Made by a program: the position numbers and the translations under genes. Source: a virus. From it: 40,849 bases of DNA. The DNA lies in the IMG/VR virus record IMGVR_UViG_3300045836_000128, positions 1 to 40,849 of that record. One strand, given 5' to 3'. Below, piece by piece: positions 6,303-28,801 of the stretch. A model generated the notes under the pieces. The model saw nothing but the letters and a program-made list of their open reading frames with translations, was not told the DNA's origin and ran no database searches. Each line of letters starts with the position of its first letter. The first letter of the stretch is position 1.

Positions 6303-7511
6303 TCATGCGCTGGCCTTCTGGGGAACTTCCAGGGAACTGCCGGCCATCGCGGCTGCCAGCCGATCGCGCTCGCGCCCCTTGTCGTTGCCGGGCAGCCACC
6401 GCGCGTAGACCTCCAGCAGCATCTTCTGGCTGTGACCGGCCTGGGCAGCGATGTAGGCGACGTTCACGCCAGCCATGAGAGCCACGGTGCAGTAGGTGTG
6501 GCGCGTGCAGTAGGGCCGCCGTCGCCTGATGCCAAGCCGTTTGAGCGTGGGGTGCCAGTAGTGGTCGCGCTGGCTACGCTCGTCGTGCCATGGCCGCTTG
6601 GTCACCGGGTTTTCGAACACGTCCACCTCGCGCCCGTCGTCGTCACGCTTCAGGTAGGTGTAGGTCCGCATCACCTTCAGCGCCTCGAGCGCCTGCGGCA
6701 CCAGGTCGACATCGCGCTCGGTGTGCGTCTTCGAACCGTCGCGCTCACTACCCTTGAACGTGCGAACGCGCTGCACTCGCGCCACGCGCGCGCGCATGTC
6801 GATGTCCTCCCATCGCAGCGCGATGGCTTCCTCCGGCCGCATGCCCGTGAAAAACATGAACGTGAAGTAGGCCGTGATCCGAGGGTCGTAGTGCCTCGCC
6901 ATGTCGGCCAGGATCCGGTCGCGCTCGTCGGCTGTCAGCGGGTCGGGCAGCTTGCGCACCACCTTGCGGTTCTTGATGCCGTTCATCGGGTTGCTCAGCG
7001 CGCGCGGGCCGGCGTACTCGAACGCGAAGACCCCGCGCAGCGGGATCAGGTAGTTGTTGAAGAGCTTGGCCGAGGTCCAGGGGTGGGCGCCGAGCTTGGC
7101 GGCCAGCACCTTGTGGCTCAAGCGCTCGACGCGTGTCGCGGCGCCGAGGATCGACTTCCACACCGCGATCGCGTTGCGGTACTGCCCGCGCGTCGCCGGC
7201 GTCAGCTCGCCCTGGGCCTGAAGCCATAGGTCAGCGAGATGCCCGAACGTCCCTTCGGGCTGGTCCGAAACCACGTCCTTTGCCAGCCGCGGCGAGTCGG
7301 GGAAGAACTCGGCAAGATCGAAGGTGCCGGCCTCGATCGCCTTGCGAACCTTGGACGCCAGGCGCTTGGCGTGCGCGATGTTGGCGGCCGTCGGCTTCAT
7401 CGGCACGCCGTTGACCTTCAGCGTCTCCCGGCACCGCTGGCCGGCCGGATCGACGAAGAACAGCCGGATGCTGCTCGGTCTGACCTCTACGCCGTCTCCG
7501 TCTCGACCCAT
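6303..7511 (-). CDS. int: Tyrosine-family site-specific integrase
   Basis: Catalyses integration and excision of the phage genome at the tRNA-type site just beyond its 3' end. With the ATG at 7511 the protein is 402 residues. It has an N-terminal arm-binding region, a core-binding SAM-like segment (residues ~88-175) and a C-terminal catalytic domain. Catalytic residues visible are Arg225 in GMRPEEA, the box-II motif YCTRHTY with Arg337, His360 in AGHS, and the nucleophile Tyr369 in EVYARW. The longer frame to 7565 is unlikely, because GGAG precedes the 7511 ATG and the start overlaps the excisionase stop by 25 bases. It is the distal gene of the leftward early operon. The last codons contain two GGGAACT repeats, so the right arm sites lie inside the gene. 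Confidence 0.95.
   Translation of the reverse strand: MGRDGDGVEVRPSSIRLFFVDPAGQRCRETLKVNGVPMKPTAANIAHAKRLASKVRKAIEAGTFDLAEFFPDSPRLAKDVVSDQPEGTFGHLADLWLQAQGELTPATRGQYRNAIAVWKSILGAATRVERLSHKVLAAKLGAHPWTSAKLFNNYLIPLRGVFAFEYAGPRALSNPMNGIKNRKVVRKLPDPLTADERDRILADMARHYDPRITAYFTFMFFTGMRPEEAIALRWEDIDMRARVARVQRVRTFKGSERDGSKTHTERDVDLVPQALEALKVMRTYTYLKRDDDGREVDVFENPVTKRPWHDERSQRDHYWHPTLKRLGIRRRRPYCTRHTYCTVALMAGVNVAYIAAQAGHSQKMLLEVYARWLPGNDKGRERDRLAAAMAGSSLEVPQKASA
6321..6338 (+). repeat. Candidate integrase arm-type sites (right arm), inside int 3' end
   Basis: GGGAACT occurs at 6321-6327 and 6332-6338, 11 bases apart, matching the core of the repeats at 6124 and 6136 on the other side of the attachment core. 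They overlap the last integrase codons. Confidence 0.45.
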
Positions 7512-7708
7512 CGCTCCATCCCCCTGGTGTCCATCCACACGCGGCCGTCCGGGCCGCGACGCCACTGCTTGCCCTCGACGAACACGCCGCGCTCGATGCG
7601 CTTGCGGATTGCTGAGGCCGACAAACCCGAAAGCTTGGCGTACATCTCGACCGTCACATAGCGCGCGGGCGCGACCTGGACTGGCGGCTCTGTTTCCTTG
7701 GTGCTCAT
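7487..7708 (-). CDS. xis: Excisionase-like DNA-binding protein, 73 aa
   Basis: The small product contains a MerR/Xis-type winged helix: VTVEMYAKLSGLSASAIRKR is a helix-turn-helix, followed by WRRGPDGRVWMDTRG as the wing, then an ending that packs on it. Size, fold and location directly upstream of int match phage excisionases, which bend attachment-site DNA and direct the integrase towards excision. The ATG at 7708 has GGAGG upstream. Longer frames are shadows of the neighbouring gene. It overlaps the upstream gene by four bases (ATGA) and the integrase start by 25 bases, so translation is probably coupled. Confidence 0.85.
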   Translation of the reverse strand: MSTKETEPPVQVAPARYVTVEMYAKLSGLSASAIRKRIERGVFVEGKQWRRGPDGRVWMDTRGMERWVETETA

Positions 7709-9511: not shown

Positions 9512-9903
9512 TGGCGCTCCAGGATGATGATGTCGGGGCGGCCGAAGGTCTGCATCGACGTCCAGATGCCGCCGGCGAGTTGGGCCATGGCCGCGTCGTA
9601 CAGCTGTCGGTATTCGCGGATGAGAGGCGTCCACTGCTCGTGCTGCCGCTGTAGCGCGCGCAGGGCGCACCATTCCTGCTCCAGTTGCTGGCGCTCGCGC
9701 AAGTGGCCGATCTGCTCGCCGCTCGCGCGGCGGTCATGCACGAAGCGCATCGCATCGAGGATGGTTGGGTAGGCGTCTCGGTCGACGGTGGAGTCGATGC
9801 GGTCACGCGCCTCCAGAGACTTCGACAGGGAATGCAGGCGCCTGTAGAGAACTTCCGGCTCGTTCGCCGCCAGCGCTGCAACCTCGGTGATGGGCTCGGT
9901 CAT
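9508..9903 (-). CDS. Helical hypothetical protein directly downstream of the DGR reverse transcriptase
   Basis: 131 residues, almost entirely charged helix (YRRLHSLSKSLEARDRID, then LRERQQLEQEWCALRALQRQ), so a coiled coil is likely. The ATG at 9903 overlaps the reverse transcriptase stop as ATGA, making the two translationally coupled. I do not recognise the family. Because of the coupling it is worth considering as an additional DGR-associated gene, though it may simply be the next operon member. Confidence 0.6.
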   Translation of the reverse strand: MTEPITEVAALAANEPEVLYRRLHSLSKSLEARDRIDSTVDRDAYPTILDAMRFVHDRRASGEQIGHLRERQQLEQEWCALRALQRQHEQWTPLIREYRQLYDAAMAQLAGGIWTSMQTFGRPDIIILERQ

Positions 9904-11084
9904 GATCTGGCTCCATAGATCTGCGTCAGCCCGGCGCTGACCGCGCGCCCGCGGCGCAGCACCGCATGCGCGAGCCGCACGCGGTCGGCGTGGCTGTGCG
10001 AGGCCTGCCGGAGCAGGCCGAAGTAGCTGTTGACGGTGGAGTACAACTCGGTGTCCGGCGCCGCCGCTACACGGCGCAGCGCGGTGCGAACGCTCCGCGG
10101 CCGCGTGACCCGGGCCCACGGTCGGATCACCTGGCCCACGAAGTCGATCCCACGGTCGACCGGCTGCAGGATCGTCTTGGTCGGGTTCAGCTGGGCGCCA
10201 AGGCGCGCCGGCAGGAACTCGGTGATCCTGGCCAGCGCGTTGTTGAGCCACTGCGGCGACTCGTGCAGCAGCACGAAATCATCGACGTAGCGCACATACC
10301 GCGCCGCGCGCACCCGGTGCTTGACGAACTGGTCCAGCGCGTCGAGGTAGACGTTGGCGAAGAACTGCGACGACAGGTTGCCGATCGGCAGACCGCGGTG
10401 CGCCGGCGCGTTGAACAGGCTCTTGTGCGGCGGCACGAGGCCGAGCAGATGCCGCGGGCAGCGCACGTCGACGTCGGCGCGAGGGTCGTGCCAGAGTACC
10501 GTGTCCGCCAGCCAGCGCCACCACGGTTCGTCGATGCGCGCGCGCAGCTGCTGCCCGAGCACGCGCTTGTCGATCGACACGAAGAAGTTCGCGAGGTCGC
10601 ACTTCAGGTAGTGGGCCGGGCGCGACCAGTTCTGCGTGATGCTGCGCACGTGGTGCTCCAGCCGCGTCGTCGCGTAGAGCGTTCCACGGCCGGGGATGCA
10701 CGCGCAGCTGTCAGCGACGAAGCTGGCCAGGAAGCGCGGCTCGACATGGTTGTACAGCAGGTGGTGGACCACGCGGTCCCGAAATTCGGCGGCCCACACC
10801 TCCCGAGGTTTCGGGTGGGTGATCACGAAGCAGATCGAGCGGCCGGGACGGTAGGTGCCGCTGATCAGTTCTTCGTGGAGCAAGCAGAGGTTGCGCTCCA
10901 GATGCTGCTCGAACACCTGGGCGCTCTTCGAATTGCGCTTGTTCCGTCGGCAGTCCAGGTATGCCACGACCAGCGCGTCGAAGGTGCACGCGTTGGATGA
11001 ATTTGCGGACGGCTCGGGCGAGGAACTCGTTGTTCTTGTCGTTGTAGTTCTGGTTGCCGTTGTTGAAGTTCTGGTACCAGGCAT
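9900..11084 (-). CDS. Diversity-generating retroelement reverse transcriptase
   Basis: Copies the TR RNA into cDNA with errors at adenines, which then replaces a VR. The catalytic core starts about 10985 (TFDALVVAYLDCRRNKRN) and runs ~360 residues, normal for DGR enzymes. Motifs in order: RSICFVITHPKPREVWAAEF, RDRVVHHLLY, LKCDLANFFVSID, then GLPIGNLSSQFFANVY. The IGNLSSQ there fits the DGR form IGxxxSQ. Next come the active-site YVDD (10278-10289) and GIDFVGQVIRP. The order target-Avd-TR-RT matches Bordetella phage BPP-1. The start is uncertain: the only in-frame ATG near the core (11084) lies inside TR, and the next candidate is a GTG at 10967 with no clear ribosome site. The frame continues upstream to 11648, but that is shadow sequence. 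Confidence 0.93.
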   Translation of the reverse strand: MPGTRTSTTATRTTTTRTTSSSPEPSANSSNACTFDALVVAYLDCRRNKRNSKSAQVFEQHLERNLCLLHEELISGTYRPGRSICFVITHPKPREVWAAEFRDRVVHHLLYNHVEPRFLASFVADSCACIPGRGTLYATTRLEHHVRSITQNWSRPAHYLKCDLANFFVSIDKRVLGQQLRARIDEPWWRWLADTVLWHDPRADVDVRCPRHLLGLVPPHKSLFNAPAHRGLPIGNLSSQFFANVYLDALDQFVKHRVRAARYVRYVDDFVLLHESPQWLNNALARITEFLPARLGAQLNPTKTILQPVDRGIDFVGQVIRPWARVTRPRSVRTALRRVAAAPDTELYSTVNSYFGLLRQASHSHADRVRLAHAVLRRGRAVSAGLTQIYGARS

Positions 11085-11103
11085 AGTCGTCGGAGTACTG
11101 CGT
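11000..11103 (-). repeat. DGR template repeat (TR)
   Basis: Read on the minus strand this 104-base stretch is dense in AAC codons (YAWYQNFNNGNQNYND if translated) and aligns end to end with the 3' ends of the two target genes. Its last ~29 bases (CAACGAG through CCGTCCGCA) are identical in all three copies and look like the initiation-of-homology region. At the boundary TR has AAATT where both VRs have AGATT. The TR RNA is the template for mutagenic reverse transcription. It lies between avd and the reverse transcriptase core, and bases 11104-11275 between TR and avd hold no gene I can support. Confidence 0.95.
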
Positions 11104-11275
11104 GCCGTTGTGCTATCTACGTCGCCCGGCCGAAGGCTCTTGCCGATCAGCGGGGAAACTGCGCCGGGCAGACCCGAACCAGTCGGGCGGTTCCCGTGGT
11201 GCGCATGGCGGTGCCCTTGTGGGGCAGCGGCACAACCAGATTCATGTTGCGCACGGGCATGGCAGGCCGTGACCT

Positions 11276-11641
11276 TCATGCTGCAGGCGCCCTTTCGCGT
11301 GCGGACTTGAGCCAGCCACCGGCTTGCCGCCCGATGCTGTCGAGCAGTTGCGTGGCGGTGCCCCAGAGCTTGGGCGACACCATGCGCCGGTCGAACGACA
11401 CCCGGAGCAAGACGGTGACGGTGCGCTGCAGCTTCAGCAGCTCCTCGATGTACCGCTGGCGCTCGGCCCGCTGGCTCGCGTTCGCCAGCGCCATCGCGTC
11501 CAGCATCTCGATGCAGTGATCGTGGATGCGCTGGCCGATGGACCGTTTGAACGCGCGTGGCATCTGCACCTGCACGTCCATCGCGAGAGACAGCAGGGCG
11601 GCGCCGGTCTTGTAGATCGGGAGCTCTGTGTGCAGCGTCAT
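11276..11641 (-). CDS. avd: DGR accessory variability determinant (Avd-like four-helix bundle)
   Basis: 121 residues, all helical, basic, beginning MTLHTELPIYKTGAALLSLA and containing MPRAFKRSIGQRIHDHCIE, RQRYIEELLKLQRTVTVLLR and LLDSIGRQAGGWLK. This is the Avd family pattern (S23/four-helix bundle), a pentameric partner that binds the reverse transcriptase and RNA in BPP-1. Its length and location between the target genes and TR fit. Start at the ATG 11641; the ribosome site is weak (GAG). Confidence 0.9.
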   Translation of the reverse strand: MTLHTELPIYKTGAALLSLAMDVQVQMPRAFKRSIGQRIHDHCIEMLDAMALANASQRAERQRYIEELLKLQRTVTVLLRVSFDRRMVSPKLWGTATQLLDSIGRQAGGWLKSARERAPAA

Positions 11642-11660
11642 GGCTCAAAGGAACAAAGGA

Positions 11661-12116
11661 TCAAAGCGGCAATCTGCGGACGGCTCGGGCGAGGAACTCG
11701 TTGGTCTTGCCGTCGTAGTAGTGCTGGGTGCCGGTGGTGAAGTCCTGGTACCAGGCACAGGCGTCGGAGTACTGCGTAGCCGTCCAATGCCACCGGCTCG
11801 TGTCGAACTCGTCGCGCAGGTTGGCGTAGAGAAGGGCGGACTCGAAGCGCGTCGGCAACTCACCACCGACCTCGGCCGCCCAGTCCTTGGCGTCCTGCCA
11901 CGTCAGCGCGGTGTCCGGCTTATGCGGCAGCAGAATGAGGTGATGCTTCGGCACGCCGCCTTCGATGACGATGCCGGCGTAGCGCTCGCCGTCGCGCAGC
12001 GCGATCGACGCTTCCGGAATCGTCACCTGCCGCGCGGCCTGTGCCTTGAACGTGGCGATCATCTCGGCCACCTTGGCGTGCTGCTCTTCGATCTCATGCA
12101 GCGTGATCTGGCTCAT
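11661..12116 (-). CDS. DGR target protein 1 (C-type-lectin-like C-terminus), 151 aa
   Basis: Starts at ATG 12116 with AGGAGA upstream. Residues 1-30 form a charged helix (IEEQHAKVAEMIATFKAQ). The centre resembles DUF1566/formylglycine-enzyme-like folds: HHLILLPHKPDTALTWQDAK, GGELPTRFESALLYANLR. The C-terminus WHWTATQYSDACAWYQDFTT and onward is the variable repeat, ending three residues after it. Diversified residues would form a ligand-binding surface, as in Mtd of BPP-1. A structural or receptor role is inferred from DGR precedent only. Longer upstream frames are shadows of target 2. Confidence 0.88.
   Translation of the reverse strand: MSQITLHEIEEQHAKVAEMIATFKAQAARQVTIPEASIALRDGERYAGIVIEGGVPKHHLILLPHKPDTALTWQDAKDWAAEVGGELPTRFESALLYANLRDEFDTSRWHWTATQYSDACAWYQDFTTGTQHYYDGKTNEFLARAVRRLPL
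11671..11777 (-). repeat. DGR variable repeat 1 (VR1)
   Basis: 107 bases against 104 in TR. Ten substitutions relative to TR, all at TR adenines: GAC to GCC, TAT to TGT, AAC to GAC, four AAC to ACC, AAC to CAC, AAC to TAC, and AAA to AGA at the boundary. VR1 also has one extra GGC codon after TACGAC. No TR C, G or T is substituted. Confidence 0.95.
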
Positions 12117-12148
12117 GGGTTCTCCTGGGGGTGAAAAGGATTGAAGGA

Positions 12149-12766
12149 CTAAACCTTGAATCTGCGGACGGCTCGGGCGAGGAACTCGTTGGTCTTGGCG
12201 TAGTAGTGCTGGCAGCCGTAGCTGAAGGTCTGGCACCAGGCATAGCCGTCGGAGGACTGCGTGCTCGCCCAGTACCAGCGCGGCTCGAACGCTTCGGCCC
12301 CGCCGGCCTGGAAGGCGGCCGCGGACGTTTGCGCCGGGATGTCGTCCGTGTACGGGTAGCCGACCGGCACCGAACTGGGGTTGTCGCCATCGCGGAAGCT
12401 GGAGTAGTTCTCCTGCGTCGTCGGCTTGAGGTTGCGGTACAGCAGCTCCAGCACGTCGCGGCTCGGGATGGACCAGTCGGCGCAGCCGTTGATGTCGAGC
12501 GCCAGGATGCGCTGGGCGAGTTCGCTGCCGGCCTCGGCCATCGCCAGCGTGTTGGCGCGGCAATCGAAGCAGCTGCGCGCGCCGGGGGCGGCCTTGCGCT
12601 TCGGGTGCCAGATGCCCTTGAACTCGCCCTGTGCCTTGGGCGCGACGGCGATGCCGTAGATGCCGTCGGGCAGGGTGATGTAGCCGGCGAAGAACCCGCC
12701 TTCGATGGGGGTTCCGAAGGTGAGGGTGGCGAGCGCGGCAACGCGCGGATCGGTGTGAGCGTTCAT
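12149..12766 (-). CDS. DGR target protein 2 (DUF1566/C-type-lectin-like), 205 aa
   Basis: Starts at ATG 12766 with GGAG upstream. N-terminal segment FFAGYITLPDGIYGIAVAPK, then CFDCRANTLAMAEAGSELAQ, and the DUF1566-like core CADWSIPSRDVLELLYRNLK, then WYWASTQ leading into the variable repeat (SSDGYAWCQTFSYGCQHYY), ending three residues after it. It is the larger and upstream member of a tandem target pair and shares only the C-terminal fold and VR with target 1. Both genes precede avd in one operon. Confidence 0.88.
   Translation of the reverse strand: MNAHTDPRVAALATLTFGTPIEGGFFAGYITLPDGIYGIAVAPKAQGEFKGIWHPKRKAAPGARSCFDCRANTLAMAEAGSELAQRILALDINGCADWSIPSRDVLELLYRNLKPTTQENYSSFRDGDNPSSVPVGYPYTDDIPAQTSAAAFQAGGAEAFEPRWYWASTQSSDGYAWCQTFSYGCQHYYAKTNEFLARAVRRFKV
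12159..12262 (-). repeat. DGR variable repeat 2 (VR2)
   Basis: 104 bases, same length as TR. Thirteen substitutions, all at TR adenines: TAC to TCC and TGC, GAC to GGC and GCC, AAC to ACC (twice), AGC, TAC (twice), CAC and TGC (two changes), and AAA to AGA at the boundary. VR2 is as different from VR1 as from TR, so the two targets were mutagenised independently. Confidence 0.95.
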
Positions 12767-12793
12767 GGATGCTCCGGTGATGGAACGATGGGA

Positions 12794-13033
12794 TCAGGCT
12801 GCGGTCTGCACCGCGGTGTGCTTGAACTTCGGCCGGATGTGCTGGCCGAAGAAGCGGCCCACCGACTCGGCGTTGCCGAGTTCGTGGGCGACGTCAGCCG
12901 GCACGTCGTGGTAGTGGTAGATCGAGCCGCTGCCCTTGAACTGGATCGCGAGCGTCTTGGTGCTCGCGTCGTAGCCGTGGGCCGCGATGTTGCTGCTCTC
13001 GCAGGGCGTGAGCGCGATGTGGTTCGTGGGCAT
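12794..13033 (-). CDS. KTSC-domain protein, 79 aa
   Basis: Contains SSNIAAHGYDASTKTLAIQF, GSIYHYHDVPADVAHEL and GRFFGQHIRPKFK, the standard KTSC domain, a small fold often found near lysyl-tRNA-synthetase-like proteins and in phages, without a settled function. An excellent AGGAGG precedes the ATG at 13033. It lies immediately upstream of DGR target 2 in the same operon. Confidence 0.85.
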   Translation of the reverse strand: MPTNHIALTPCESSNIAAHGYDASTKTLAIQFKGSGSIYHYHDVPADVAHELGNAESVGRFFGQHIRPKFKHTAVQTAA

Positions 13034-13041
13034 GCCGCCTC

Positions 13042-13251
13042 CTACTGGATCGTGGGCTTCTTGGAGGCGTTGGCTGCCTTGACGGCTTCTTCCATCGCCT
13101 CTTCGGGGGTGGCACCGTGGCCGAAGGCGACGATCGAAAGACCGCCGACCTCCGTGACCTTGGCTGCCGGCGCCTGCGCCGCGGCCGTCATGGCGCGTCG
13201 CCGCCTCATGACGTTGATGCGGTACAGGCGCATGACGGTCTTGAAGTCCAT
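13042..13251 (-). CDS. Small basic hypothetical protein, 69 aa
   Basis: N-terminal basic segment (RLYRINVMRRRRAMTAAA), then a compact VTEVGGLSIVAFGHGATPEE segment and a helix. The start at 13251 lies within five bases of the upstream stop; an internal Met is also possible. No family recognised. Confidence 0.5.
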   Translation of the reverse strand: MDFKTVMRLYRINVMRRRRAMTAAAQAPAAKVTEVGGLSIVAFGHGATPEEAMEEAVKAANASKKPTIQ

Positions 13252-23330: not shown

Positions 23331-23659
23331 AGCGAATCGAACCAGGCATGCCGTGCCGCGTGGCGGTCGCCGACAAGGTGATCGGCCCGCAGGTCAACGG
23401 CATGGTGGTGATCCCGACCGCGAAGGCCAGGCGGCCCGGCGGCTACTGGTACATCAGCCCGCGCCTGGAGATCACCCTCGACCGTGCGGTCGCGGACTCC
23501 GAAGGAAACACGATCGTCGCCGGCACGCACGCCATCAAGGCGATGCACGAGAAGCACCTGGTGCCTCTCGATCGCCCGCGCGAAGACGACGTTGACCAGA
23601 TGGTGCTGCGCGCCGGCCGGCCGGGGGCACTCAAGCTCGACGAGGTGCCGCTGCAATGA
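23327..23659 (+). CDS. Conserved phage protein of unknown function, 110 aa
   Basis: Start ATG 23327 overlaps the previous stop. Beta-rich product: MPCRVAVADKVIGPQVNGMV, GGYWYISPRLEITLDRA, TIVAGTHAIKAMHEKHLVPL. Reads like a small barrel domain. It precedes the cytosine methyltransferase with overlapping stop and start. No family recognised. Confidence 0.6.
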   Translation: MKRIEPGMPCRVAVADKVIGPQVNGMVVIPTAKARRPGGYWYISPRLEITLDRAVADSEGNTIVAGTHAIKAMHEKHLVPLDRPREDDVDQMVLRAGRPGALKLDEVPLQ

Positions 23660-25512
23660 TGACGCCCCAGCTGATCCTCGGCCTCGCTGACGAGCTCGTC
23701 GTTGACCTCTTCGCCGGCGGCGGTGGCGCCAGCACCGGCATCGAGCAGGCCATCGGGCGGCACGTCGACATCGCGGTCAACCACGACCCGGAGGCGGTGA
23801 GCCTGCACCAGGCGAACCATCCCCAAACGCGGCACTTCGTCAGCGACGTGTTCGAGGTCGACCCCGTGACCGTGTGCGGTGACCAGCCGGTTGGGCTGCT
23901 TTGGGCGTCGCCAGACTGCAAGCACTTCAGCAAGGCGAAGGGCGGGAAGCCGCGCAGCAAGAAGATCCGCGCGCTCGCCTGGGTGGTCATCAAGTGGGCA
24001 AAGGCCGTGCGGCCGCGGGTGATCTGCCTGGAGAACGTCGAGGAATTCCAGACGTGGGGCCCGCTGCTCGCCGACGGACAGCCGTGCCCGGAGCGCAAGG
24101 GCCGCACCTTCCAGCGGTGGCTCGCGCAACTGCGGAACCTTGGCTATCAGGTCGACATGCGCGAGCTGCGTGCGTGCGACTACGGCGCGCCGACGATCCG
24201 CAAACGCTTCTTCCTCGTCGCGCGCCGCGACGGGCAGCCGATCGTCTGGCCCGACAAGACACACGGGCCCGGGCTCAAGCCGTACCGCACCGCGGCAGAG
24301 TGCATCGACTGGTCTATCCCATGCCCATCGATCTTCGAGCGCGAGCGGCCTCTGGCGGAGGCCACGCTGCGGCGCATTGCCCACGGCATCAAGCGCTACG
24401 TGATCGATGCTCCGAAGCCGTTCATCGTGCCAGTGACGCACAACCAGGGAGCCAACGTGCACCCAGTGAGCGAGCCCCTGCGCACGGTGACGACGGCAAA
24501 GCGCGGCGAGCTGGCTTTGGCGGTGCCGCACGTCACCAAGTTCCGGCAGAGCAGCATCGGCAGCGGCTGCGATGAACCGTTGCACACCGTCACTGCCGGC
24601 GGCGAGCAGGCGAGGCCCGGGACAGGCAACGCGATGGGCCTCGTGTCGGCGACGCTGGTGCAGACCGGCTACGGCGAGCGCCCCGGCCAAGCGCCCCGCG
24701 TCCCCGGCCTCGACAAGCCGCTCGGCACATGCGTCGACGGGCAGAAGCACGGCCTCGTCGCTGCGTTCCTCGCCAAGCACTACGGCGGACACGAGACACC
24801 CGGCACGGCTTGCGACGCCCCGATCAGCACGGTGACGACACAGGACCATCACCATCTCGTGGCGGCCCAGCTGGTTGGGGTCGGTGGGCGAACGGGGCAG
24901 GGCCAGTCTCCTGCCTACGAAGCTGACCGGCCCGCGCGCACGATCACCGCCGAGGGCGACACGGCCCTGGTGACTGCGCAGTTGGCCAAGCTTCGCGGCA
25001 CCGGCCGCAGCAACAGCGTGCAGGACCCGCTGCACACCGTCAGCGCGCAGGGCGAGCATCACGCGCTGGTCTCGTCGCACCTGGTGGGCGCCGGCGGCCC
25101 GGAGTACAGCGGCAAGCCTCGCCCTGTCGGCGAGCCGATTGGCACGCTCACCACCGAGAACCATCGCGCCGAAGTGCGCGCCCTCCTGCTGAAGTACTAC
25201 GGCACGGATCAGGACCCCGAGCTACGCGAGCCTCTGCACACGGTGACCACCAAGGACCGCTTCGGCCTTGTGACGGTGAAGGGCGTGGACTATTTCATCG
25301 CCGACATCGGGATGCGCATGTTGCAGCCGCGCGAGCTGTACCGCGCGCAGGGCTTCCCAGAGAGCTACGTCATCGACCGCGGCGCCGACGGCCGGCCCCT
25401 GTCGAAAGCGGCGCAGGTGCGCATGTGCGGCAACAGCGTCTGCCCGCCACTGGCGCGCGCGATCGTCGCTGCGAACTACAGCGAGCAGCGCGCAATGCGG
25501 GAGGCCGCGTGA
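23656..25512 (+). CDS. DNA (cytosine-5) methyltransferase with eight repeated PLxTVT modules, 618 aa
   Basis: Transfers a methyl group from S-adenosylmethionine to cytosine C5 in DNA. Motif I is DLFAGGGGAS (17-26), motif IV is ASPDCKHFS (84-92), motif VI ENVEEF (126-131), motif VIII TIRKRFFLVARR (180-191), and motifs IX-X LQPRELYRAQGFP and GNSVCPPLARAIV. The catalytic Cys88 is in SPDC, not the usual PPCQ, as I recall for some phage enzymes. Between VIII and IX lie eight copies of a PL-x-TVT-type motif (starting near residues 273, 307, 354, 388, 425, 457, 493, 525), spaced 32-47 residues, where target recognition normally resides. No restriction nuclease is adjacent, so a solitary protective enzyme is likely. 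Confidence 0.9.
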   Translation: MMTPQLILGLADELVVDLFAGGGGASTGIEQAIGRHVDIAVNHDPEAVSLHQANHPQTRHFVSDVFEVDPVTVCGDQPVGLLWASPDCKHFSKAKGGKPRSKKIRALAWVVIKWAKAVRPRVICLENVEEFQTWGPLLADGQPCPERKGRTFQRWLAQLRNLGYQVDMRELRACDYGAPTIRKRFFLVARRDGQPIVWPDKTHGPGLKPYRTAAECIDWSIPCPSIFERERPLAEATLRRIAHGIKRYVIDAPKPFIVPVTHNQGANVHPVSEPLRTVTTAKRGELALAVPHVTKFRQSSIGSGCDEPLHTVTAGGEQARPGTGNAMGLVSATLVQTGYGERPGQAPRVPGLDKPLGTCVDGQKHGLVAAFLAKHYGGHETPGTACDAPISTVTTQDHHHLVAAQLVGVGGRTGQGQSPAYEADRPARTITAEGDTALVTAQLAKLRGTGRSNSVQDPLHTVSAQGEHHALVSSHLVGAGGPEYSGKPRPVGEPIGTLTTENHRAEVRALLLKYYGTDQDPELREPLHTVTTKDRFGLVTVKGVDYFIADIGMRMLQPRELYRAQGFPESYVIDRGADGRPLSKAAQVRMCGNSVCPPLARAIVAANYSEQRAMREAA

Positions 25513-26463: not shown

Positions 26464-27830
26464 GCGACTACCTGACCTTCCTGCGCGAGAAGAGCCAGCT
26501 CGATGGCGACTTCGGCTTCGAGCCCATCTGGTTGCCGGATTCGCTATTCGACTTCCAAGCCGCCATGGTGACATGGGCGCTCCGAAAGGGGCGTGGCGCT
26601 CTCTTCGAAGACTGTGGGATGGGCAAAGGCCTGCAGGAGTTGGTCTTCGGTGAGAACGTCGTTCGCAAGGCCAACGGCAACTTCCTGCTCAAGGCTCCGC
26701 TGGCGGTGGCCGCACAGCTGTCTCGCGAAGCCGAGAAGTTCGGTATCGAGGTGCATTACAGCCGCGACGGCAAGATAAAGCGCGGCATCAACATCACGAA
26801 CTACGAACGCCTGCACCTCTTCGACCCGTCCGATTTCGCTGGCACCGCAAACGACGAGTCCAGCATCCTGAAGAACTTCGACGGGGCGCGCCGGGCGCAG
26901 ATCACCGAGTTTGACCGCAAGCTGCCGTACCGCCTTCTTGGCACCGCGACGGCGGCGCCCAACGACTACATCGAACTCGGCACGTCCTCCGAGGCCTTGG
27001 GCTACCTAGGCCACATGGACATGCTGAACCGCTTCTTCAAGAACGACCTCAGCAACAGCAGTACCGGCCGCGGGTTTATGGGCTCGGCGAACAAGTGGCG
27101 CTTCAAGGGGCATGCCGAAATTCCATTCTGGCGCTGGGTGTGCAGCTGGGCGCGCGCGATGCGCAAGCCTTCCGACCTTGGCTTCGACGACGGTGACTTC
27201 GCCCTTCCGGCGCTGGAAGAAGTCGAGCACCAGGTTGACGCGAACAAGCTGGCTGATGGGATGCTCTTCGCCCTCCCGGCCGCAGGCCTGCAGGAAGAGC
27301 GCGAAGAGCGCCGCCGGACGTTGCGCGAGCGCTGCGAGAAGGCGGCCGAGCTGATCTGTGCTCACGATCAGCCGGCGGTCGCTTGGTGCGACCTGAACGA
27401 CGAAGGCGACCTGCTGCAGCAGTTGATCCCGGGTGCGGTGCAGGTCAGCGGCAAGGACAGCGACGACTCCAAGGAAGAGAAGTTGCTCGGCTTCTCAGCC
27501 GGGCAGTTCCGCGTGCTTGTCACGAAGCAGAAGATCGCCGGCTTCGGCATGAACTGGCAGCACTGCGGCCACATGACCGACTTCCCCTCGCACAGCTACG
27601 AGGGGTACTACCAGAAGGTCCGGCGCTTCTGGCGCTTCGGCCGCAAGGCACCGGTGCGCGTCGACATCGTTACCACCGAAGGCGGCCGGGGCACGCTGGC
27701 CAACATGCGCCGCAAGGCTGCCCAGGCCGACGCTATGTTCGCAGCGCTCGTCGAACAGATGCGCTTCGCGCAGGACATCGCCCGCAGCCGCGCCTTCTCA
27801 GAACAACAGGAGATCCCAGCATGGCTGTAG
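26460..27830 (+). CDS. Phage SNF2/DEAD-like helicase with degenerate Walker A, 456 aa
   Basis: Family members are ATP-driven DNA translocases. Visible motifs: DFQAAMVTWALRKGRGALFE (Q-motif region), DCGMGKGLQE as Walker A (residues 51-60), NDESSILKNFDG as the DExx box (131-142), RLLGTATAAPND as motif III, and QKVRRFWRFGRKAPVRVDIV as motif VI. In Walker A the residue after Lys56 is Gly instead of Thr/Ser, so ATPase activity may be impaired or altered. The gene overlaps the following methyltransferase by 10 bases, and this helicase-methyltransferase pairing recurs in betaproteobacterial phages as I recall. A role in replication or DNA modification is inferred. Confidence 0.8.
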   Translation: MSDYLTFLREKSQLDGDFGFEPIWLPDSLFDFQAAMVTWALRKGRGALFEDCGMGKGLQELVFGENVVRKANGNFLLKAPLAVAAQLSREAEKFGIEVHYSRDGKIKRGINITNYERLHLFDPSDFAGTANDESSILKNFDGARRAQITEFDRKLPYRLLGTATAAPNDYIELGTSSEALGYLGHMDMLNRFFKNDLSNSSTGRGFMGSANKWRFKGHAEIPFWRWVCSWARAMRKPSDLGFDDGDFALPALEEVEHQVDANKLADGMLFALPAAGLQEEREERRRTLRERCEKAAELICAHDQPAVAWCDLNDEGDLLQQLIPGAVQVSGKDSDDSKEEKLLGFSAGQFRVLVTKQKIAGFGMNWQHCGHMTDFPSHSYEGYYQKVRRFWRFGRKAPVRVDIVTTEGGRGTLANMRRKAAQADAMFAALVEQMRFAQDIARSRAFSEQQEIPAWL

Positions 27831-28801
27831 CCGACCAGCGCATTACCGAGACGTACGCGATCTACCAGGGAGATTGCGTGGAGGGCATAAAGGAGTTGCC
27901 CGATGGCCGCATTCACCTGTCCGTCTACTCGCCGCCGTTCGGCGGCCTGTACCACTACAGCAGCGATGATCGCGACCTTTCGAACTGCCGCGACTACGCA
28001 GCTTTCTTCGAGCACTACGAGTTCGTCGTGCGCGAGATTGCGCGCGTCACCATGCCGGGCCGCTTCAGCGCAGTTCACTGCATGGAGGTGCCACGCAGCA
28101 ACAGCGGCACCGACTCCCTGATCGATTTCCCCGGCGACATCATCAGGCTGCACGAGCGGCTCGGTTGGAAGTACGCCGGCCGCCACGCCATCTGGAAGGA
28201 GCCGCTCGCCGTTCGCCTGCGGACCATGCAGAAGAACCTGGCGCACGCCACGCTTGTGGCGGACAGCTGCGACTGTGGGGTGGCGTCGGCCGACTACCTG
28301 TTGCTGTTCCGGCGCGACGGCAACAACCCGGTGCCTGTTGCTCACCCCGTCGGGATGACCGAATACGCCGGCGATCGCAAGCCGCCAGCCGAGGTGCTGC
28401 AGTACCGCGGCTGGACCGGCAAACAGACCGAGAACCGCTTCTCCCACTGGATCTGGCGCCAGTACGCCGACTGCATGTGGGACGACATCCGCATCGACCG
28501 GGTGCTGCCCTTCAAGGAGGCACGCGACAGCGACGACGAAAAGCATGTCCACCCGCTGCAACTCGATGTCATCGATCGCGTGATCGCGCTGCGAAGCAAC
28601 CCGGGCGAGGTCGTGCTCACGCCGTTCATGGGCGTCGGCAGCGAGGTCTACGGCGCGCTCTGCGCCGGTCGCAAGGCGATGGGCTGGGAACTGAAGGCCA
28701 GCTATTTCCGGCAGGCGGTGAAGAACGTGGAAGCGGCGGCTGCTGGCTACCGCTTTGAGCGGCTGAACGAGGAGTTGGCTTTCGAAGAGGAGGCAGCCTG
28801 A
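27821..28801 (+). CDS. DNA methyltransferase, beta-class (N4-cytosine/N6-adenine type), 326 aa
   Basis: Amino-methyltransferase. Motif IV is SPPF at residues 37-40, near the N-terminus, and the SAM-binding FMGVGSEVYGALCAGRKAMG lies near the C-terminus, the permuted beta-class order. SPPF rather than DPPY favours N4-cytosine, but adenine is not excluded. Middle blocks FSAVHCMEVPRSNSG and HWIWRQYADCMWDDIRIDRV match the phage DNA-methylase family. AGGAG precedes the ATG at 27821, inside the helicase end. With no adjacent nuclease, protection from host restriction is the likely role. Confidence 0.85.
   Translation: MAVADQRITETYAIYQGDCVEGIKELPDGRIHLSVYSPPFGGLYHYSSDDRDLSNCRDYAAFFEHYEFVVREIARVTMPGRFSAVHCMEVPRSNSGTDSLIDFPGDIIRLHERLGWKYAGRHAIWKEPLAVRLRTMQKNLAHATLVADSCDCGVASADYLLLFRRDGNNPVPVAHPVGMTEYAGDRKPPAEVLQYRGWTGKQTENRFSHWIWRQYADCMWDDIRIDRVLPFKEARDSDDEKHVHPLQLDVIDRVIALRSNPGEVVLTPFMGVGSEVYGALCAGRKAMGWELKASYFRQAVKNVEAAAAGYRFERLNEELAFEEEAA

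Follow-up and report, generated by a model that had tools for sequence, protein, structure and literature searches.

Diversity-generating retroelements of phages

Bordetella phage BPP-1 carries a diversity-generating retroelement (DGR) that acts on one tail target (Mtd), and its homing is efficient only with a hairpin 3' of VR (PMC3240598); the hairpin also proved important in an E. coli assay (PMC12875486). The GC hairpin of BPP-1-type elements is placed 4-34 bp past VR. In BPP-1 the RF03022 RNA lies between the template repeat (TR) and brt, 3' of TR. DGRs with multiple targets and with DUF1566 targets have already been published (PMC6642488, PMC10743442, PMC3521204). According to the portions of these sources drawn on here, the tentaclin phages nd4 and nd12 (PMC10743442) and the DUF1566 pairs (PMC6642488) combine one TR with two C-type-lectin-like targets, as does the locus described below, but they are gut phages with receptor-binding candidates in which the VR of one target lies near its 5' end; the same portions report no octamer array.

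Closer to the present locus are the temperate-phage DGRs associated with the RT-15 structured RNA, found in Pseudomonas phages Cruim01, LPPA56, Haboob and SC_8, Burkholderia phage Magia and Shewanella phage QDWS. Their reverse transcriptase (RT) is 65-70% identical to that of the 40,849-base IMG/VR virus record analysed here in its entirety (the window), and they share the order avd-(RT-15)-TR-RT and two or three small targets placed in the early/recombination region or nearby, with clear octamer arrays in all but LPPA56. The outgroup Bise-like clade (Pseudomonas phage Bise and relatives; RT ~33% identical) likewise consists of phage DGRs with an RT and an Avd-like four-helix-bundle protein; it differs in having one VR per locus and no octamer array (0/68), and GRNA-loop hairpins are visible after most of the VRs inspected.

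The locus and its genomic setting

The minus strand of the window bears a complete DGR consisting of an RT, avd, one TR and two target genes, arranged in the order KTSC gene, target 2, target 1, avd, RT-15 RNA, TR and RT. An earlier note, made from the sequence by eye, had described a complete element with one TR and two tandem targets, which the repeats and profile matches confirm. The DGR is flanked by a tyrosine integrase (6303-7565, minus strand) on one side and, on the other, by a left-early block containing a DUF2303 gene, an exonuclease, an Erf-like annealing protein and a CI-like repressor, while terminase and portal genes occupy the right end of the window and endolysin/ejection-type genes its left end. 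Given this neighbourhood of integrase and recombination/early genes, the DGR therefore lies in the early/recombination region, outside the tail module, the note having likewise set it apart from the tail genes. The phage carrying it is temperate. As for the claimed adjacency to int/xis, the integrase is matched by profile and xis was not found. A saccharopine-dehydrogenase-family gene (PF16653/PF03435; 4547-6094, plus strand), either phage cargo or host flank, adjoins the integrase, and two DNA-methyltransferase-like reading frames (23656-25509 and 27383-28798, plus strand) are located in the early-right region.

The window and BPP-1 have in common the RT, Avd, the TR/VR pair, adenine mutagenesis and a GC-rich IMH. 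They differ in that the window has two non-tail targets and an octamer array where BPP-1 has one tail target and a hairpin, and an RT-15 RNA 5' of TR where BPP-1 has RF03022 3' of it. The two-target, non-tail arrangement that the note singled out is indeed unlike BPP-1, but it is the norm in the window's own clade (74/76 loci): of the 76 loci with enough upstream DNA, the window included, 62 carry a pair of VRs and 12 carry three. Related RTs, 60-72% identical, comprise 577 confirmed stretches in viral contigs and also occur in Pseudomonas, Burkholderiales and related genomes, and the window DGR is an ordinary member of this widespread clade. Third targets, each with an octamer array, are found 2-5 kb upstream of the RT in L008, L009, L011, L025, L044, L062, L068, L069, L076 and L078.

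Reverse transcriptase, Avd and the RT-15 RNA

The DGR reverse transcriptase (9900..11084, minus strand) matches phrog_1423 (E 2.8e-116) and RVT_1 (E 1.2e-14), with conserved homology spanning 9900 to ~10985. It carries the YVDD and IGNLSSQ motifs pointed out in the note; the catalytic motif is intact. The nearest solved structure is 8ub7 (E 4.4e-37), presumably the BPP-1 DGR complex; the RT itself is ~33% identical to that of BPP-1. The RT frame is open through the 3' end of TR in 177/177 family loci. Its start codon is uncertain and is probably the ATG at 11082-11084, inside TR, an arrangement that would leave no room for a BPP-1-like non-coding spacer. This ATG is the only plausible in-frame one nearby, and TR may thus double as RT coding sequence. 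A hidden RNA 3' of TR, within the start of the RT coding sequence, was considered and rejected, as synonymous-site conservation is without a clear excess in the first codons.

The avd gene (11276..11641, minus strand) encodes a protein of 121 aa that matches phrog_3206, 'Avd protein of DGR' (E 1.8e-23), so that both profile searches suggested in the note, for RT and for Avd, returned a match; against bAvd (PF22296) the protein scores 36.8 bits, just under the cut-off of 40. The gap between avd and TR is filled by a full-length RT-15 structured RNA (RF03018; 11101..11292, minus strand; 171.1 bits, gathering score 82, E 1e-42, model positions 1-192/192), which is located 5' of TR. It was the only RNA returned by an Rfam scan of 9800-13200 at E <= 1, in which RF03022, the BPP-1-type RNA 3' of TR, was not found. 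The RT-15 RNA is likewise present in seven relatives, and its threshold was not reached in L165 and L174, two among the distant loci with octamers that were scanned. No link between the RT-15 RNA and its place in a DGR was found in the open literature searched.

Template and variable repeats

The three repeats, all on the minus strand, form a 108-nt family in which TR (10998-11105) differs from both VRs at adenines only. VR1 (11671-11777) lies at the 3' end of target 1, at the coordinates given previously, and VR2 (12157-12264) at the 3' end of target 2; VR2 and TR are extended here at both ends. Alignment reproduces the counts of the note, with 10 substitutions in VR1 (10/35 TR adenines, 0/74 other bases) and 13 in VR2 (13/35 TR adenines, 0/73 other bases), and the chance of such adenine-only placement is 4.3e-6 and 7.2e-8, respectively. 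The GC-rich 3' end reported as shared is real and is identical in TR, VR1 and VR2 over 29 nt (CAACGAGTTCCTCGCCCGAGCCGTCCGCA). Directly beyond this block, an A>G change is common to both VRs; the window has A in TR/IMH* where most relatives have G in both TR and VR. Because this shared change is probably a TR/IMH difference, 9 (VR1) and 12 (VR2) are the safer counts. Read in frame, TR contains many AAC codons, in which changing either adenine cannot create a stop codon.

Relative to TR, VR1 also contains a 3-nt insertion that keeps the frame and adds one GGC codon, which the note had missed; this additional NNC codon is situated in the AAC-rich region (window 11690-11712). The same kind of one-codon insertion in VR1 occurs in three relatives (L015, L021 and L028), and L028 differs from the near-identical L018 by the insertion together with adenine-site changes, which suggests that template slippage may accompany adenine mutagenesis.

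Among 167 pooled VRs of the family, 42% of TR adenines are changed versus 0.43% of other bases. The check proposed in the note, namely whether variation is confined to TR-adenine sites, was carried out on near-identical relatives. Over 3,600 bp, L084 differs from L183 by 24 changes, of which 13 lie in VR1 and 11 in VR2, every one at a TR-adenine site, and TR is the same in both; in the pair L004/L005, the differences fall at TR adenines in 14/14 cases. The family is active: its members rewrite both VRs, and do so exclusively at TR adenines. L084/L183 show that one TR really feeds two genes. The window's own copy may be active as well.

Target proteins

Target 1 (11661..12116, minus strand; 151 aa) has a weak Lcl_C/DUF1566 match (PF07603, E 2.3e-4, below the cut-off; phrog_4245, E 5.4e-8), and target 2 (12149..12766, minus strand; 205 aa) is an Lcl_C/DUF1566, C-type-lectin-like protein (phrog_4245, E 2.4e-29), the two being of unrelated length as previously noted. 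The family profile of target 2 matches the Lcl C-terminal domain 8q4e (E 1.2e-9), and in a fold search the same structure, from Legionella Lcl, was the top but moderate hit (prob 0.85, E 0.11). In both C-type-lectin-like targets the VR is at the C-terminus, and no signal sequence was obvious on reading the two protein sequences. Judging from gene position, the targets are probably binding proteins that undergo diversification and are produced in the early phase or during lysogeny.

An octamer array after the variable repeats

When the 3' flanks of every VR were aligned, an array of some three octamers (consensus TTYANTMM) became apparent ~9 nt past the IMH anchor GTCCGCA, and a matrix was then built from those flanks. 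In the window, the array after VR1 (TTTGATCC TTTGTTCC TTTGAGCC; 11642..11665, minus strand) scores 21.3 bits and that after VR2 (TTTAGTCC TTCAATCC TTTTCACC; 12130..12153, minus strand) 26.2 bits, while the best non-VR site in the window reaches 4.4 bits; the matrix scan of the window detected no third target. No array follows TR in the window or in the discovery set, where the matrix gives at least 16 bits at 164/164 VRs and never at TR. Outside VRs it matches ~3 places in 1.79 Mb; of the top four further matches, three are VR1 positions that the anchor had failed to capture, and the fourth, in L044, is an unclassified site. The spacing between array and IMH is 9 nt in 141/164 VRs, and the stop codon falls at three main offsets. 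The earlier note had remarked on neither the arrays after both VRs nor the upstream RT-15 RNA. In the open literature searched, no description of direct repeats or octamers after VRs was found.

In later sets, which partly overlap the discovery loci through shared phages (L020/L096, L024/L097 and L045/L100), the matrix recognizes 86% of 138 genome VRs and, in LPPA56-like viruses, 77% of 150. A relaxed pattern, drawn up once the low scorers had been inspected, is present at 95% of genome VRs (RT at least 58% identical) and 97% of LPPA56-like VRs, compared with 0.7% of shuffles; for the 14 VRs that are most distant (RT 42-52% identical), the figure is 57%. A matrix-free test for 8-nt periodicity gave z = 25 and 28, with 5.3 in the outgroup. 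RTs accompanied by the array group in a single clade of 104 (support 0.98) that takes in members from Alphaproteobacteria, Bdellovibrionota and Omnitrophota. Scanning viral contigs with the pattern yielded 117 new loci, of which 78 encode an RT; 37/39 of those without one encode a target or Avd homologue.

Some array-bearing targets occur apart from any RT. In Medea1 (L085) and Aurca01 (L086) no related RT was found; each has two DUF1566 genes, the first of which keeps both IMH and array while the second lacks both. Among long records with an octamer-bearing VR, 10/12 have no RT in the record, which counts against the array as a target mark, although these records may be fragments. Such orphan targets may be in decay, or else serve as substrates for rewriting in trans. 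Targeting of Aurca01 by Cruim01, from the same host strain, was considered and set aside, as the TR-VR comparison shows several non-adenine differences. Target-like genes with IMH and array for which no RT was found are also present in L271, L296, L314, L348, L350, L365, L310 and L287.

Proposed mechanism and alternative explanations

The locus is a DGR of the RT-15-RNA clade whose octamer array likely serves to mark targets for retrohoming. In this model, RT and Avd would reverse-transcribe the RNA of the single TR, making errors at adenines, and the resulting cDNA would replace the 3' ends of the two small Lcl_C-type genes in the early/recombination operon. The array, TTYANTMM repeated about three times ~9 nt past the IMH, would tell targets from template and perform the job of the BPP-1 GC hairpin, by providing a site for binding, melting or both at which the target is opened so that the cDNA can anneal. 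A role as the clade's target mark is the simplest reading of the array since it keeps a constant distance from the IMH whereas the stop codon shifts, since in Medea1 and Aurca01 one DUF1566 gene has both array and IMH and the other has neither, and since the window has no hairpin. Both protein recognition and mere melting are possible; the former is favoured because the position-specific letters of the octamers persist in GC-shifted variants.

An ordinary BPP-1-like DGR, marked by a hairpin and with an array that amounts to no more than AT-rich spacing or the surroundings of a stop codon, would be in keeping with the hairpin's role in BPP-1 and E. coli and with the GC hairpins located 30-40 nt past many VRs of the clade (59/77 VR1 and 25/71 VR2 among relatives). 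This explanation is nevertheless unlikely. Unlike those relatives, the window has no stem of at least 6 bp within 75 nt of either VR, and its VR flanks are almost free of structure, folding at -0.2 and -3.9 kcal/mol versus -13.3 for BPP-1. In this clade, hairpins accompany 41-52% of VRs, whereas the array is kept at ~95% or more; moreover, array spacing is fixed to the IMH rather than to the stop codon, and the positional pattern survives GC shifts. Phages of the LPPA56 lineage, in which a degenerate array is combined with hairpins, are clearly active, which counts against the array as the mark; the two elements may therefore be partly interchangeable.

Less probable still is that the array serves the operon in transcription or translation (as terminator, coupling or regulator site) and has no connection with retrohoming. 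The array is intergenic and includes the target stop codon in most loci, as such a signal might, but it follows VR1, VR2 and the remote VR3 whatever the next gene, and is nearly absent elsewhere in 1.79 Mb; in the RT-less Medea1 and Aurca01, it is also the DUF1566 gene without IMH that is without the array. That the window DGR is a dead relic, with old VR/TR differences and no present rewriting, appears similarly improbable: viral and genome collections, searched with a TR pattern made degenerate at its adenines, yielded no other copy of the window phage for comparison, and the RT start codon is ambiguous, but the RT, Avd, RT-15 RNA, IMH and both arrays are intact and the relatives are active.

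Implications for the clade

The unexpected part of this locus is the clade-wide octamer array together with the RNA 5' of TR. Whether the whole clade, across several phyla, uses the array instead of a hairpin and, in its main part, the 5' RNA, and so follows a route of cDNA priming and target opening that differs from the BPP-1 one, is an evenly balanced proposition. The distinction between target and template and the entry of cDNA into the target have been studied almost only in BPP-1, and a clade-wide, sequence-specific tag at fixed spacing constitutes a short, testable recognition element. The array further provides a computational handle for locating targets, even orphan ones that lack an RT, and the clade that it tags may offer a second module for targeted gene diversification.
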